From positions 78,468,450 through 78,532,449 of the forward strand of contig OZ020269.1 in the NCBI GenBank assembly GCA_963971225.1: a stretch of DNA of 64,000 bases. The letters are read 5' to 3'. Numbering within the stretch: position 1 is the stretch's first letter; each line of letters starts with the position of its first letter. Positions 1,474 to 20,458 of this stretch are shown piece by piece. The position numbers were made by a program, and so were the translations under genes. Source of the DNA: Melieria omissa. Lineage: Eukaryota; Arthropoda; Insecta; Diptera; Ulidiidae. The notes beneath the pieces are model-generated. The model was not told the origin of the DNA and did no database searches. It saw only the letters and a list, made by a program, of their open reading frames with translations.

Positions 1474-1511
1474 CACAGTGTCGCGAGTCCTAGTAGCGAG
1501 GGACAAAAACA
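1474..1511 (+). other. Left RSS-like terminus, 22-bp spacer
   Basis: Heptamer CACAGTG (1474-1480), 22-bp spacer (1481-1502), nonamer-like ACAAAAACA (1503-1511). The heptamer equals the V(D)J consensus heptamer and the nonamer matches ACAAAAACC at eight of nine positions. The spacer looks like the right-end spacer expanded by a short duplication containing GCGAG. Confidence 0.6.
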
Positions 1512-2706
1512 GAAGGAATAGTCGCACGACAATAAAATTTTGTACATATGATTTTATTATAAAGATAAGTTAATACGCCAACAAATACTTCAATCGCCCC
1601 ACGGACACGCCCACCTCCCAAATACTATACTAAGTTGAGAGTATTTCGGAATCTATAAAAGATATATTGATGAAATTATAAATACCAAAAATGGTATCGA
1701 TCAACCTACAAATACGCTTGTCATAAAAAAAGAAATATTGAAAAACTACAAATATCTGGGCATACTTATCCGCACCTAAGTAATTTCAAACCGAAATAGA
1801 AAATAATAACACCTCTTATTAAATTCAGTATAGCATATATTTTAATTTAAAATTAAAATTGGTTAATCTGCACTGCTAGGACAATCGGTATCCGATGATG
1901 AATTATTCAAATTAATCCCTCTACATCTATTTTTGATAAAATTTAAAAACTCCTCAGATATTATATATTGCAGTATATCAGAGTTTCGGTTTAATGACAA
2001 GAAGACATTAACAAGTTTTGCTTCTTTTCGAAAGTTGCCTTAATTCGATGGCAAGCCTTCCATCGAGTCTACCTTTTTTTTTGTAATTTTTCTAAATCCA
2101 GTGGTGTTTGCATATTATTACGAACAAAAATTTATAGCTCAAGCGAAGCGCAGTAGTGGTCGCTATGTTTTCCTGCCAACCATGCTGCAAAAAGGACCCT
2201 ATTTTTGACTGCAAACGGCACTGAAAAAGCTACATTTTTTAAAAACGTGCAAGTTTGTGCAGCTAAAGTCCATTGTTTCTATTAATACATACTTTTTGCT
2301 ATATCAAACTGTAGAATCTCGAAGTAGTAAGAAGTAGTTTTTTTTTTAGTTTATCTAAAGTTTGATGACACTGCACTTTTATTCCTACGAATTGACGTTT
2401 CTCCAAGTAACGGTACAAGGAAAGCAAAAAATAGAGGGAAATCTTCCACAGAAAAATAGTATATTTATAGAATATATTTACTTAACAGGTTCCATGGGAA
2501 ATTTTTCAATAAGAGTCCTCGAACTTACATTCAACAAATTGCAATAGTTTCTTCCCAAGCCACCAACCTTCACAAAGTGCAAGTTTGATGGCCTGCCATC
2601 GGTATATAAATTGATATTTTGAAAATTCGTTTTCACATTATAGTAAAATGAGGTATTTACTTCAGTACTACAAACTTATTTTTCTACATTTAAGACATTA
2701 ATTTTT

Positions 2707-2734
2707 TATTTTTGTCCCTACTCGCGACACTGTG
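2707..2734 (-). other. Right RSS-like terminus, 12-bp spacer
   Basis: Read on the minus strand: heptamer CACAGTG (2734-2728), spacer TCGCGAGTAGGG of exactly 12 bp (2727-2716), nonamer-like ACAAAAATA (2715-2707). The arrangement equals a 12-RSS. Confidence 0.6.
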
Positions 2735-2739
2735 CGCCG

Positions 2740-3758
2740 TGGCACTGCGGGGTATGCATTGCAACTCCAATGCGCACCACCCAGCAAAGTACACACCTGC
2801 AATACGTTTTTCACCAACTTCGCCACCTGCTCGGCAACAACAAACAATACAGATAAAAATCGCAAGTAGCGAAAACAACAAAGCCTAAAATTAATGACGC
2901 TATAACAACAAAATGCGGCTATTACACAATTTCAGCAACCAAGCAACTACGCGTCTGTCCAGCAACTGCCCGTTCGGTCGCCTGGCAGCGCGCACACGTT
3001 CGTAGTCTGGACGTCAGACAATAAAAACCAAAGTCCGAGATTAATGCGCCAACATCCTGTGCCTGCGCTACCAATTACCTACACTGCAATCAGAAACAAG
3101 AACAGCTGCAGAAGTAGCACCATCAGCTATGATAATGGCCCTGACAGTGGCAGTGACGCACCCAGAGCAACCAGCAGCAAATACAATACAATACAAAATA
3201 TTTCCGGTAAAAAATATGGTTTCAAATGGTTTGGGAACAAAATTTGCACGCAAACCCCAACCAAAATGAAAGCATATGTGCGCCAATGCTGGCAACATTA
3301 TAGTAAACACTGCCAACATCAGAAACTACGCTTTCAGCGAAATCAACTGTTGACGAATTATGTAAATGCTCGAAAATATTTGCTACGAAAATGGAAATCG
3401 CTCGCATATTTCAATCGTTTCATTTAATTTTTGATTTTTGAAAATTCATTCTGACATAATTTCAGCAATGCCAAATAACATCAGATCGCAACGTGATACA
3501 AAAAAGGATATAGTTTAACTCGTCATTTCAGCCAGCTATACGAGCACAGTAGGCGATCACAAATTTGAACTATGTACTTTGTACACAGGATACGTCGATT
3601 TTCCGAAATAGGTTTTCTGATCGTTTTTTTAAATTATGAAAAACCCCAACAATGGACCTCATCTAAAAACTTATGTATACTTAGGCAACCGTAACAAGTT
3701 TTAACTATTGTGAAAAGTTGTATTTGCATACTTATCTCTTTTGATTATTACATGTTTT
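2740..3758. other. No confident gene; one unrecognised 127-codon open frame
   Basis: An open frame at 3044-3427 (plus) encodes a basic, Asn- and Lys-rich peptide with no domain I recognise, no signal peptide and no visible splice context. It may be chance. The rest is AT-rich without terminal repeats that I can see. Confidence 0.35.
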
Positions 3759-11596: not shown

Positions 11597-12568
11597 CTTA
11601 GTGTTTAGTGTCCTCGCGATCACGTTGATTCGTTTTCCTCTATCGGTATTTACCTATTTGCTAGATGACCCAGTAAACTTCGTACCACCTTAAATTTAGT
11701 CGATTGTAACTTCATAACCGATTATTATGCGCCAATTAGCCAAGACACAGAACATAAACTTAATCAACCCATACACAGAGTCTATAGACTCTGCCGTTAT
11801 CTTAGAAATTTGAGCAATTTCCCAAAACTTCGTTTCAATAAAAATAAATTTAGGAATCAGCTGATACTCCTCATTGACAGAAAAAAAGATATTGCCACTC
11901 AGTTTTAATCGGAACACACACGCACACGGAAATTAAATCTTTTTACGACATATTTTCAATTAATTTTATTGAATTTACAAGCATCACTTGACTTAAAATA
12001 TTAATATATTTACAAAAATGGCATTCCATTTTGTGTATTTAGCAAAATCTGGTAATTTGTTCATTTTCCAATTCATTGAGAACAGAGGGGCAACGTTTTT
12101 CTGAGCAAAAGTATCAGACATACACAAAGAAACCAAATCATTACATGTTTATAAGTTTACAGGTATAATCTAAGTTTATGTTCTATGTCTTGGATAACCA
12201 TTTGTACAGAGGAGCGTAGCCAAGACGGCGTTTGCGGCGATCTGGGTTGTATGGGCGCTACTATGCCCACTTGTTCAATGCTCACCCTAATTATCGAAGG
12301 GCGACGAACACAACTATAAGATAAGTTCGTACTGTTCGTTCTATTGATGTGCGACTTAAAGTTACAAAATTATGCGAAGAATTAGGATCTCAAAAAAGTG
12401 CTACGCCTCTTGTCCAACGCCTATGCGGAATTGAATGTCGCGCAACTTATAATTCCGATGATGCCACAGCCCTTCTTTTAATGCTCAGGTTTAAGTTTTA
12501 ATAAATAAATATAAATATTTAATAAATAAATATAAATATTTAGGAATATGTATATTAAATGTATATTA
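11597..12568. other. No gene; one relic of a dispersed tandem repeat
   Basis: At about 12390-12425 the phrase GCTACGCCTCTTGTCCAACG matches the ~139-bp unit repeated at 38130-38500. Otherwise AT-rich and featureless. Confidence 0.45.
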
Positions 12569-12791: not shown

Positions 12792-14284
12792 CTTACTTAC
12801 TTAACTGGCCATAACAACCCGTTATCGGGTTACGGCCTGCCGCAAAACTTCTCTCCAGGCGCCTCTGCTTCGCGCGCGCCTTCTCCAGTTGGTCACACCA
12901 AGAGATACCAGGGCCTCTTCCACTTGGTCCTTCCACCGGAGACACGGCCTCCCTCTTCGCCGTCGACCTCCAACCATCGCATCGAATACCTTTTTCGCCG
13001 GAGCTTCATCGTCCATGCGGCAGACATGACCGAGCCAGCGTAGCCGCTGGATGTTAACTCGCTGCGCTACGTCCATGTCCTTATACAGCTCATACAGCTC
13101 GTTATTGGTTCGTATGCGATAGTCGTCACCAACCCGAACAGGGCCGAAGATTTTGCGAAGCACCTTCCTCTCGAACACTCCAAGGGCCGCTATGTCGTTT
13201 CGTGTCATTGTCCATGCTTCAGCGCCATAGAGGAGCACGGGCAAGATAAGCGTCCTATAGAGTGAAAGTTTTGTCGGTCGAGAGAGGTCTCTACTTCTCA
13301 ATTGCCTACCGAGACCATAGTAGCACCTGTTGGCAAGAGTTATCCTTCGCTTTATCTCCAGACTGACATCATTACTGCTGTTGATGGCGGTGCCAAGGTA
13401 GACGAATTCCTTGACAACTTCAAAAGCATACCTGTCGGCCTCGACATGAGACCCTAGCCGCTGCGAGTCCCTGCGTGTAGACAGCATATACTTCGTCTTG
13501 CCCTCATTTACCACCAGACCCATTTTGGCAGATTCTCTTTCGATAGCCGCAAAGGCAGCGGTGACATCTCGCTTGTTACGTCCGATGACATCAATATCAT
13601 CAGCGTAAGCAAGGAGCTGGACACTTTTGTTGAAAATTGTGCCATTACGATGTACACCGGCCTTGCGCAGAACACTCTCCATGGTGAAGTTGAAGAGGTC
13701 GCAGGACAAAGGATCGCCCTGTCTGAAACCTCGAACGGTATCAAAGGGGTCGGAGAGGTCACTTCCAACCTTGACGGAGCTGCGCGTATTGCTCAACGTC
13801 GCTCTGCAAAGTCTAACGAGCTTTGCAGGGATACCAAGTTCAGACAATGCGGCATATAGGCGATCCCTTATCGGGCTATCGAATGCTGCCTTGTAATCGA
13901 TGAAGAGATGGTGTGTATCGATTTGGTTCTCATGGGTCTTCTCCAGGATTTGGCGTAGAGTGAATATCTGGTCGATGGTGGACTTACCAGGTCTAAAGCC
14001 GCACTGATAAGGTCCAATCAGCGCCTTGGCGAGTGGCTTTAGTCTTTCACATAATACGCTCGTCAGGACCTTGTATGCAATGGGAAGTAGGCTGATACCC
14101 CTGTAGTTGGCGCATATTGTTGGGTCGCCTTTCTTCAGCACAGGACAAAGGGCACTGAGGTTCCAATCGTTGGGCATTCGTTCCTCCAGCCATATTTTGC
14201 AAATGAGCTGATGCATGCACCCAATCAGCTCACCGCCGCCGGCCTTGAACAATTCAGCTGGTAGCCCATCCGGCCCTGCAGCTT
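12792..14284 (-). mobile_element. 5'-truncated non-LTR retrotransposon (LINE)
   Basis: Flanked by a perfect 16-bp duplication TGCCGGTCAATTATTA at 12776-12791 and 14285-14300, the signature of target-primed reverse transcription. On the minus strand its 3' end is GGCCAGTTAAG followed by TAAG repeats. A simple-repeat tail rather than poly(A) is typical of RTE-related LINEs. The 5' end is lost: only the reverse transcriptase part of the second ORF remains. Confidence 0.9.
12822..14284 (-). pseudogene. LINE reverse transcriptase, C-terminal ~487 residues, frame open
   Basis: RNA-dependent DNA polymerase that copies LINE RNA at nicked chromosomal DNA. Motifs in order: KAAGPDGLPAEL, YRGISLLPIAYKVL, QCGFRPGKSTIDQ, the Asp-bearing motif A in HHLFIDYKAAFD, motif B GFRQGDPLSC, the catalytic YADDIDV, the thumb-like EFVYLGTAINSS, and a C-terminal WLGHVCRMDD ... 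RRGRPCLRW region. The first codons of the open frame (14285-14294) come from the target duplication, so there is no native start. The endonuclease domain is missing. The frame has no stop or frameshift over about 490 codons, so the insertion is probably young. Closest clade by eye: RTE-related; unproven. Confidence 0.9.
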
Positions 14285-14300
14285 TGCCGGTCAATTATTA

Positions 14301-16271: not shown

Positions 16272-16988
16272 GTGCGTTGCGATTTTGTTGAGAATTTTCT
16301 TCAAAATGATTACCGTGAACAGGTCTCTTTGGACGTGCTTGATCGTGCCAATTCCGATCCAACTTTTATGGAACGCATCATAACTGGTGACGAGACATGG
16401 GTCTACGAGTACGACATGCAAACAAGCCAACAATCATCGGAATGGAGAGGATAAGACGAGCCGAAACCGAAAAAACCACGCCAAAGTCGCTCGAAAATCA
16501 AGGTAATGCTGATTGTTTTCTTCGATATTCGTGGTGTGGTGCATCATGAATTCGTCCCTGAAGGACAAACAGTCGGTAAAGACTATTATTTGACTGTTTT
16601 AAGACGTTTGCGTGAAAATATCCGCCGTAAACGGCCTCAATTGTGGAAGGATAATTCATGGATTTTTCATGACGATAATGCTCCCTCGCACCGAGCCAAC
16701 ATTATCAACGATTTTAAGGCCAAACATTCAATAAATACCATCGAAAAGCCACCGTATTCACCTGATCTTGCACCGTGTGACTTTTTCCTGTTTCCCAAAC
16801 TCAAATTACCACTCAGAGGAACGCGTTTTGAATCCATAGAAGACGTAAAACAGAATTCGCAGAGCGAACTCAAAGCGGAAAGTGCCAATAAAAAATGTTT
16901 TGATGATTGGAAGAAATGTTGGCATATGTGTATCGCTTCTAATGGAGCATATTTTGAAGGAGATAAAATAAATATTGATGAAGATTAA
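16272..16988 (+). pseudogene. Mariner transposase, N-terminally deleted, one in-frame stop
   Basis: Two blocks in the same frame (16272-16454 and 16506-16988) are separated by a TAA after QQSSEWRG. The first catalytic Asp is in ITGDETWVYEYD and the second in FHDDNAPSH. The third is in YSPDLAPCDFFLFPKLK at exactly 34 residues spacing, so the D,D34D triad is complete. It ends AYFEGDKINIDED. About 100 N-terminal residues, including most of the DNA-binding domain, are missing. Non-functional because of the stop and deletion. Confidence 0.9.
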
Positions 16989-17224
16989 GAATTTTGGGTT
17001 TTATTTAAAATTTCAAATTACCACTCAGAGGAACGCGTTTTGAATCCATAGAAGATGTAAAACAGAATTCGCAGAGCGAACTCAAAGCGGAAAGTGCCAA
17101 TAAAAAATGTTTTGATGATTGGAAGAAACGTTGGCATATGTGTATCGCTTCTAATGGAGCATATTTTGAAGGAGATAAAATAAATATTGATGAAGATTAA
17201 GAATTTTGGGTTTTATTTAAAATT
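16801..17224 (+). repeat. 212-bp tandem duplication inside the mariner
   Basis: TCAAATTACCACTCAGAGG starts at 16801 and again at 17013. The two units differ at only a few positions (for example GAAGACG/GAAGATG and GAAATG/GAAACG), so the duplication is recent relative to the element. Confidence 0.9.
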
Positions 17225-17263
17225 TCCGGAAACTTTTCGGTCACAAGGTAGCTATACGAGTAT

Positions 17264-18147: not shown

Positions 18148-18213
18148 AGTAAGAGCTGAGAGCTGTTGAAAGAGCTGAGAGCTGTTGGAAGAGCTGAGAG
18201 CTATTGAAAGAGC
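18148..18213 (+). repeat. Minisatellite, ~23-bp unit
   Basis: About three units of AGAGCTGAGAGCTGTTGAA with small variations, plus a partial unit. Confidence 0.75.
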
Positions 18214-18278
18214 TTACTTTCGTTGTTAAACGTGCGACACATAACGGCTCACAAAGCGCTCTGTTGTAAAGTAATAAC

Positions 18279-20012: not shown

Positions 20013-20458
20013 TGTTACGAATACTACGTCTAGTGGGCTGTTACGTATCACTGGATTGTGCAATTTGAAAATGAAACAACTTTAATTATTCCAACGCAGC
20101 CAATTAAAAACCAACAGTCACTTTATTATTCACAGTTTTACACTTTACTGTTCGTACACTTAAGTATTTGCTTAATTACTCCGTTGGCAACTTCACTTGT
20201 CAAAACCAGACTCACTCGCTGCGCCGCATCCGGCTGCCTTTTATACCTGTCAGGCCATCGCGCAGATCGTTCCCGCACATTCCGGAGTGGACTTAAAGTT
20301 TCCATCATTGCCAGGTTGGACTAAAAGTTATTATCGCGGCCGTCGTTGCCAGATTGGACTAAAAGTTACCATCGCGGCCGTCGTTGCCAGATTGGATTAT
20401 AGCACGGCACGTAGCGGCAGGGTTGCTTTGCACAGCGACAGACTGTCTTATCGTTACA
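20013..20458 (-). mobile_element. Gypsy-type solo LTR
   Basis: On the minus strand it begins TGTAACGATAAG and ends TATTCGTAACA, flanked by ATAT (20009-20012, 20459-20462). It contains TATAAAA (about 20245-20239), a downstream CAGCGAGTGAGTC start-like region, and AATAAAG as poly(A) signal. It has two near-identical copies of a ~45-bp unit with AACTTTTAGTCCAA. No internal retrotransposon sequence is present, so it is a solo LTR. Its U5 end is part of the left palindrome arm. Confidence 0.78.

Follow-up and report, generated by a model that had tools for sequence, protein, structure and literature searches.

A non-autonomous Transib with 12/23-type ends in Melieria omissa, its autonomous relatives and the end geometries of other Transib lineages in the same genome

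Is the pairing of one short and one long RSS-like end on an insect transposon a fixed feature of its family, and how might such a pair have arisen? The question is raised by a 1,261-bp element at positions 1474–2734 (minus strand) of a 64,000-nt stretch of the Melieria omissa genome (contig OZ020269.1), hereafter the window. An earlier note made from the letters alone had described a Transib-like element with a 5-bp CGCCG duplication, CACAGTG at both ends and spacers of 22 and 12 bp. Direct reading agreed exactly: perfect CGCCG repeats, the target-site duplications, flank the element at 1469–1473 and 2735–2739. The left, long-spacer (23-type) terminus begins with the heptamer (1474–1480, plus strand; 7/7 versus the vertebrate RSS heptamer), followed by the 22-nt spacer TCGCGAGTCCTAGTAGCGAGGG (1481–1502, plus strand) and the nonamer ACAAAAACA (1503–1511, plus strand), which agrees with ACAAAAACC at 8/9 positions. 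The right, 12-type terminus lies on the transposase 5' side. Its outer end is the directly read heptamer (2728–2734, minus strand), with the 12-nt spacer TCGCGAGTAGGG (2716–2727, minus strand; from the window and the family end scan) and the nonamer ACAAAAATA (2707–2715, minus strand; 7/9 versus ACAAAAACC) inward of it. Both motifs are as close to the vertebrate consensus as the note had held. Elsewhere in the window, a 490-codon open frame (12822–14294, minus strand) resembles by eye a non-LTR retrotransposon reverse transcriptase, a 212-bp unit occurs as two repeats of 99% identity (16801–17226), and shorter repeat arrays lie at 12497–12542, 18151–18214 and 20308–20396.

A full-length Transib with the same ends, which the note had proposed to look for, is present in the genome. 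Whole autonomous elements measure 3,001–3,008 bp. Six were read (L049 and L051–L055), differing pairwise by 0–11 mismatches and 0–9 gap positions. Both 12/23 ends are complete and the duplications perfect in five (L049, L051–L054); the first four bases are missing at the 23 end of L055. Element search and mapping identified the window element as a non-autonomous, internal-deletion derivative. It aligns to autonomous positions 1–634 and 2252–3008 at 82–86% identity, its positions 546–1261 corresponding to L049 2252–3008 at 86%. A 1,355-bp copy (L009) has the same deletion junction relative to the autonomous element. The window element's family is a simple internal deletion of a ~3.0-kb autonomous Transib. 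An upstream transposase coding exon may survive in the window copy as a remnant at approximately 2019–2240 (minus strand), judging from the mapping onto L049 with exon limits set by eye.

Each of the six autonomous copies contains one 560-codon open frame. An upstream coding exon apparently precedes it, the intron being judged by eye, and the full coding integrity of the gene is putative. A protein search of the genome gave 97 transposase matches, seven of which, at seven places, span residues 1–560 without stops at 99–100% identity. The seventh place (C3:55470440-55473448) also appeared as a 12/23 pair in the end census. No second frame of at least 150 codons was found in the six copies, a threshold that shorter exons would escape, and the autonomous copies gave no sign of a predicted RAG2-like gene.

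The encoded protein (P0001) is a RAG1-core-like DDE transposase, as is characteristic of the Transib superfamily. It is homologous to the Helicoverpa zea HzTransib transposase (6pqn; E 2e-107), which bears out the assignment to the Transib type. D151, D255 and E464 align, by an inferred offset, with the catalytic residues D126, D225 and E436 of HzTransib, numbered as in PMC6941560. A profile of 43 homologs found RAG1 chains (best E 2.8e-12), and an AlphaFold model (pLDDT 86) had HzTransib and then RAG1 as its best PDB matches. A Pfam search of P0001 returned no family. The nearest organism-named homologs among the 120 listed were from Stomoxys calcitrans (54%) and Rhagoletis pomonella (50%). 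N-terminal to the core, the model places a segment with a GRP motif and two predicted helices. Within the RAG1 match, the GRP motif and a basic helix align with the RAG1 nonamer-binding domain (NBD), a likeness that is weak for the segment alone (independent E 0.37). The GRP columns are at least 90% conserved across the 43 homologs. The same stretch is of low confidence in the model (50–76 in ten-residue blocks), and the solved HzTransib chain starts after it. A GRP-bearing NBD was already described in both Transib subgroups (PMC9435367), so a putative one here would be confirmation and nothing new.

We searched the genome (490 Mb, 164 contigs) with the window element and obtained at least 57 matches; 40 of 262 candidates were scored, and the counts are lower bounds. 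Forty-one stretches, the window included, were fetched with flanks and represent 40 places, L022 and L048 being one. Two ends passed the scan in 25 stretches. Spacers were exactly 23/12 in 24 of these and 22/12 in the window, so that the 12/22–23 asymmetry that the note wished to see checked is fixed among scorable family copies. The target-site duplication, which was not used for selection, agreed at 5/5 positions in 18 of the 25, at 4/5 in six and at 1/5 in one; a CG-rich 5-bp duplication is a trait of the Transib superfamily. One end passed in 11 stretches and none in five, copies with ends under the scan threshold being scored in these classes; looser alignment indicates that L039, L048 and L062 retain 12-type ends. 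Two matches were omitted from the two-ended count, namely a spacer-25 match on the window (the heptamer palindrome read backwards) and an outer candidate in the flank of L042 (CACAGCG, spacer 22). Copies L044, L045, L056 and L057 have common GGGCG/CGCCC-type flanks, perhaps repeated host sequence or co-duplicated, and may be non-independent insertions. The scrambled copy L047 has some of its internal pieces inverted. It was considered as a 23/23 element and rejected, since a single good end, of the 23 type, was found.

Exact-word searches gave the same picture. Genome-wide, the outer 15-mer CACAGTGTCGCGAGT was counted 348 times and its reversed control never. Heptamer-like termini starting with CAC, another Transib trait, were thus read directly in the window and as these exact 15-mers. 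Allowing any gap of 0–30 before GGGACAAAA returned 126 ends (control, 0). Among the 100 of these that were listed, the spacer was 12 in 51, 23 in 48 and 22 in the window copy only. The family spacers are therefore 12 and 23, one base having been lost in the window copy; the note's 12 holds for the family, its 22 for that copy alone. Head-to-head pairs within 10 kb numbered 24, of which 23 were 12/23 and the other was the window pair. Symmetric family copies, which would have counted against the note, were found among neither the 25 two-ended copies nor the 24 pairs; it is other Transib lineages that are symmetric. The remaining 222 of the 348 15-mers lack the second block GGGACAAAA, and the first 20 of them on C1 were read (L111–L130). 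A nonamer-like stretch stood at 12 in 18, at 23 in one and was absent from one. The 12-type ends among them mostly have GTGG and then CCAAAAAT, as in lineage F1b, which seems on this basis to have its own numerous short copies. In A-rich stretches an equally good nonamer match sometimes occurs at 20 or 21 too.

We estimated how often such nonamers arise by chance by applying a dinucleotide shuffle to everything but the heptamer in the family ends, rather than in those of the window copy itself. Of 20,000 shuffles, 0.135% had a nonamer as good as that observed at 23 in the left end and 0.01% had one at 12 in the right end; none had both. Spacer bases are also highly conserved within the family. 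In 32 copies of the 12-end, no position from 1 to 27 falls below 93% identity, and values beyond run from 46% to 100%, the copies having been admitted with an exact or one-variant heptamer and at most five mismatches in positions 8–28, with near-identical young copies included. Because the scans select for the heptamer plus the greater part of the outer spacer, this conservation is partly by construction; it lends support to constraint, short of proof.

Twenty further transposase places were searched for ends. Both ends were accepted at 11, one at two and none at seven. A CAC start and a duplication matching at 4/5 or better (3/5 for F6) were required, and target-site agreement in these relatives is by construction. 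Besides the window's own lineage, F1, eight lineages had both ends, with transposases about 38–60% identical. Spacers are 12/23 in F1b and F2 (two places), 13/23 in F6 and 14/24 in F8; they are 24/24 in F3 (two places), 23/23 in F5 (two places) and, where set by eye, 23/23 in F9 and 22/22 in F10. A single end was found for F7 (12-type, 5' side) and for a second F6 copy (23-type, 3' side). The short side of F8 was also read by eye: the automatic scan, covering lengths 11–13 and 21–25, chose 22 (AAAAAAATC), which would make F8 nearly symmetric, while in the reading adopted both ends have GG before the nonamer, CCAAAAATA at 14 and TCAAAAATA at 24. The F6 element at C1:90952029-90956505 and its relatives have many matches, an N-terminal part unmatched by the query and the nonamer-like ACAAAATT. 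In one 23/23 element (C1:132862943-132865811) the heptamer of the right end is doubled (CACAGTGCACAGTG), perhaps through insertion beside an older end.

Two regularities emerged among the asymmetric lineages. In 5/5 it is the transposase 5' side that carries the short end, and the short spacer is 10–11 bp shorter than the long one in 5/5, approximately one helical turn. The shared polarity amounts in effect to one or two independent events. No short/short lineage was present among the 11 of 20 further places with both ends found. We also considered a link between the GRP/NBD segment and asymmetry and discarded it, as symmetric F3 and F5 carry GRP too.

How, then, could a 12/23 pair have been built? 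The earlier note took the long spacer to be the short one expanded by a local duplication. The 5-mer GCGAG does occur twice in the long spacer; however, a 5-mer in common with the 12-spacer is found in 48% of random 11-nt inserts, and the extra 11 nt copies its neighbours no more than such an insert would. The 23-spacer is moreover recognisable across lineages whose transposases are only 47–60% identical, which indicates that it is old, and short/short lineages are absent from the 11 places. An expansion of the short spacer is accordingly very unlikely. The opposite relation fits well. The short spacer equals the long spacer minus one block at 12/12 positions in F1, 11/12 in F1b, 10/12 in F2 and 10/14 in F8, fits matched by 0, 0, 1 and 4 of 5,000 shuffles, respectively. 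F6 fits poorly, 440 of 5,000 shuffles doing equally well. Among the long spacers, those of F1, F1b, F2 and F6 are alike (p 0.002 or less per pair); that of F8 is unlike them, as are the spacers of the symmetric lineages. F1, F1b, F2, F7 and F6 form a clade with support of 0.94 (FastTree, 132 tips) and UFBoot 100 (IQ-TREE, 42 of those tips), in midpoint-rooted trees with partial sequences for F7, F1b, F6 and F10. Most likely the short end, on the transposase 5' side, is a long one that has lost roughly one helical turn. With no short/short lineage found and a 23-spacer common to the clade, the direction is most simply read as a symmetric pair losing a turn. This is a parsimony argument, made with a midpoint root and with long spacers of the asymmetric clade that are not recognisably like the symmetric ones.

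Asymmetry might instead be ancestral in Transib, with symmetric lineages derived by copying one end onto the other. The two spacers of each symmetric lineage are near-identical (24/24, 23/23, 19/23 and 20/22 identities), as such copying would leave them, and PMC9435367 holds that Subgroup I inherited asymmetric ends from the Transib ancestor. Our best trees, at low support, place F8 among the symmetric lineages, an arrangement needing more losses than gains. They would suggest two independent origins of asymmetry, an interpretation we did not adopt, since the AU test does not reject a topology uniting all the asymmetric lineages (p 0.34) and a single origin is still allowed. Ancestral asymmetry is a serious possibility, if one we lean away from. 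A different objection is that the RSS likeness is convergent or accidental, the ends being unequal subterminal repeats of which only the terminal ~15 bp matter. Sufficiency of about that length has been proposed for invertebrate RAGL ends in PMC7204232. The symmetric 22/22, 23/23 and 24/24 Transibs of this genome evidently spread as well, the F9 nonamers are poor (4/9 and 6/9), and the ends of HzTransib are symmetric and barely, if at all, resemble the nonamer (PMC8289069). Set against these are the 0/20,000 shuffles giving the nonamer pair, the conservation of the 12-end over positions 1–27 within its selected copies, and the constant 10–11-bp difference in the five asymmetric lineages. An A-rich nonamer-like stretch also stands at 12–14 or 22–24 in 9/9 lineages read, weakly in F9 and F10. 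We judge accident or convergence doubtful. That the element is of the RAGL/ProtoRAG type rather than a Transib is suggested by its RAG1-like transposase and RSS-like ends; yet with HzTransib as the closest solved relative and no second frame of 150 codons or more in the six copies, that assignment is almost certainly wrong.

The pair is real and well formed, and 12/23-type Transib ends were already known. In PMC8355894, citing Kapitonov and Jurka 2005, 12/23-type ends are listed for Transib5 of D. melanogaster and Transib2, N1, N2 and N3 of An. gambiae. The window family shares their asymmetric RSS-like ends, by description rather than by sequence match, and by spacer lengths it belongs to these already known 12/23-type Transibs. 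Most Transib families have symmetric ends, according to PMC8289069, where HzTransib differs from the window family in just this respect and in its nonamers. PMC4411706 describes autonomous Transibs as typically present in one or at most a few copies, whereas several near-identical open-frame copies occur here. ProtoRAG of amphioxus also has asymmetric RSS-like TIRs and a RAG1-like enzyme, but differs in its 27/31 spacers and RAG2-like gene, as given in PMC8355894 and PMC8289069. With the vertebrate RAG1/2 12- and 23-RSSs the window family has in common CACAGTG, an A-rich nonamer and spacers of 12 and 23, as well as the NBD alignment noted above. In contrast to the vertebrate system, no RAG2 was found, the spacer sequence is conserved, and the ends are mobile-element termini with CG-rich target-site duplications. 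Among titles on asymmetric Transib TIRs and the helical turn, none concerned a one-turn deletion series, which leaves absence from the literature unproven.

These features suggest how the ends could be used. A transposase dimer would bind one end via CACAGTG and the nonamer 12 bp inward, and the other via the same two motifs separated by 23 bp. The additional 11 bp, close to one helical turn, would set the nonamer on the same DNA face at both ends. The catalytic core would read the heptamer and the AT-hook-like GRP segment the A-rich nonamer, pairing the ends, and DDE chemistry would excise the element and insert it into a CG-rich 5-bp target. We infer that both ends are bound in this heptamer/nonamer manner and that a short/long pair is preferred. 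The lack of symmetric pairs among the 24 is only consistent with a functional 12/23 preference: common descent alone would preserve 12/23 in every copy, and fixed asymmetry is therefore no proof of a transposase requirement. Spacers conserved within the family, unlike those of vertebrate RSSs, also mean that recognition may involve more than heptamer and nonamer. Taken as a whole, it is highly probable that the feature in the window is an old insect Transib copy, non-autonomous and with an internal deletion, with the autonomous relative and the paired-end mechanism as proposed.

What makes this genome valuable is that young open-frame copies occur in it alongside a series of end geometries. 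For the origin of the 12/23 rule, they supply naturally occurring enzymes and substrates with which to ask whether the asymmetry is needed. The same set bears on how one nonamer-reading segment might accommodate two spacings that differ by a turn, and on the direction of change. Our broadest proposal is speculative and rather unlikely to hold in full: an insect transposase without RAG2 would enforce a 12/23-like rule, and its asymmetry would have arisen when the 5'-side end of a symmetric 22–24-bp pair lost one turn. If true, the rule that orders V(D)J recombination would be something the RAG1/Transib enzyme inherited or can readily re-evolve, not a vertebrate invention.
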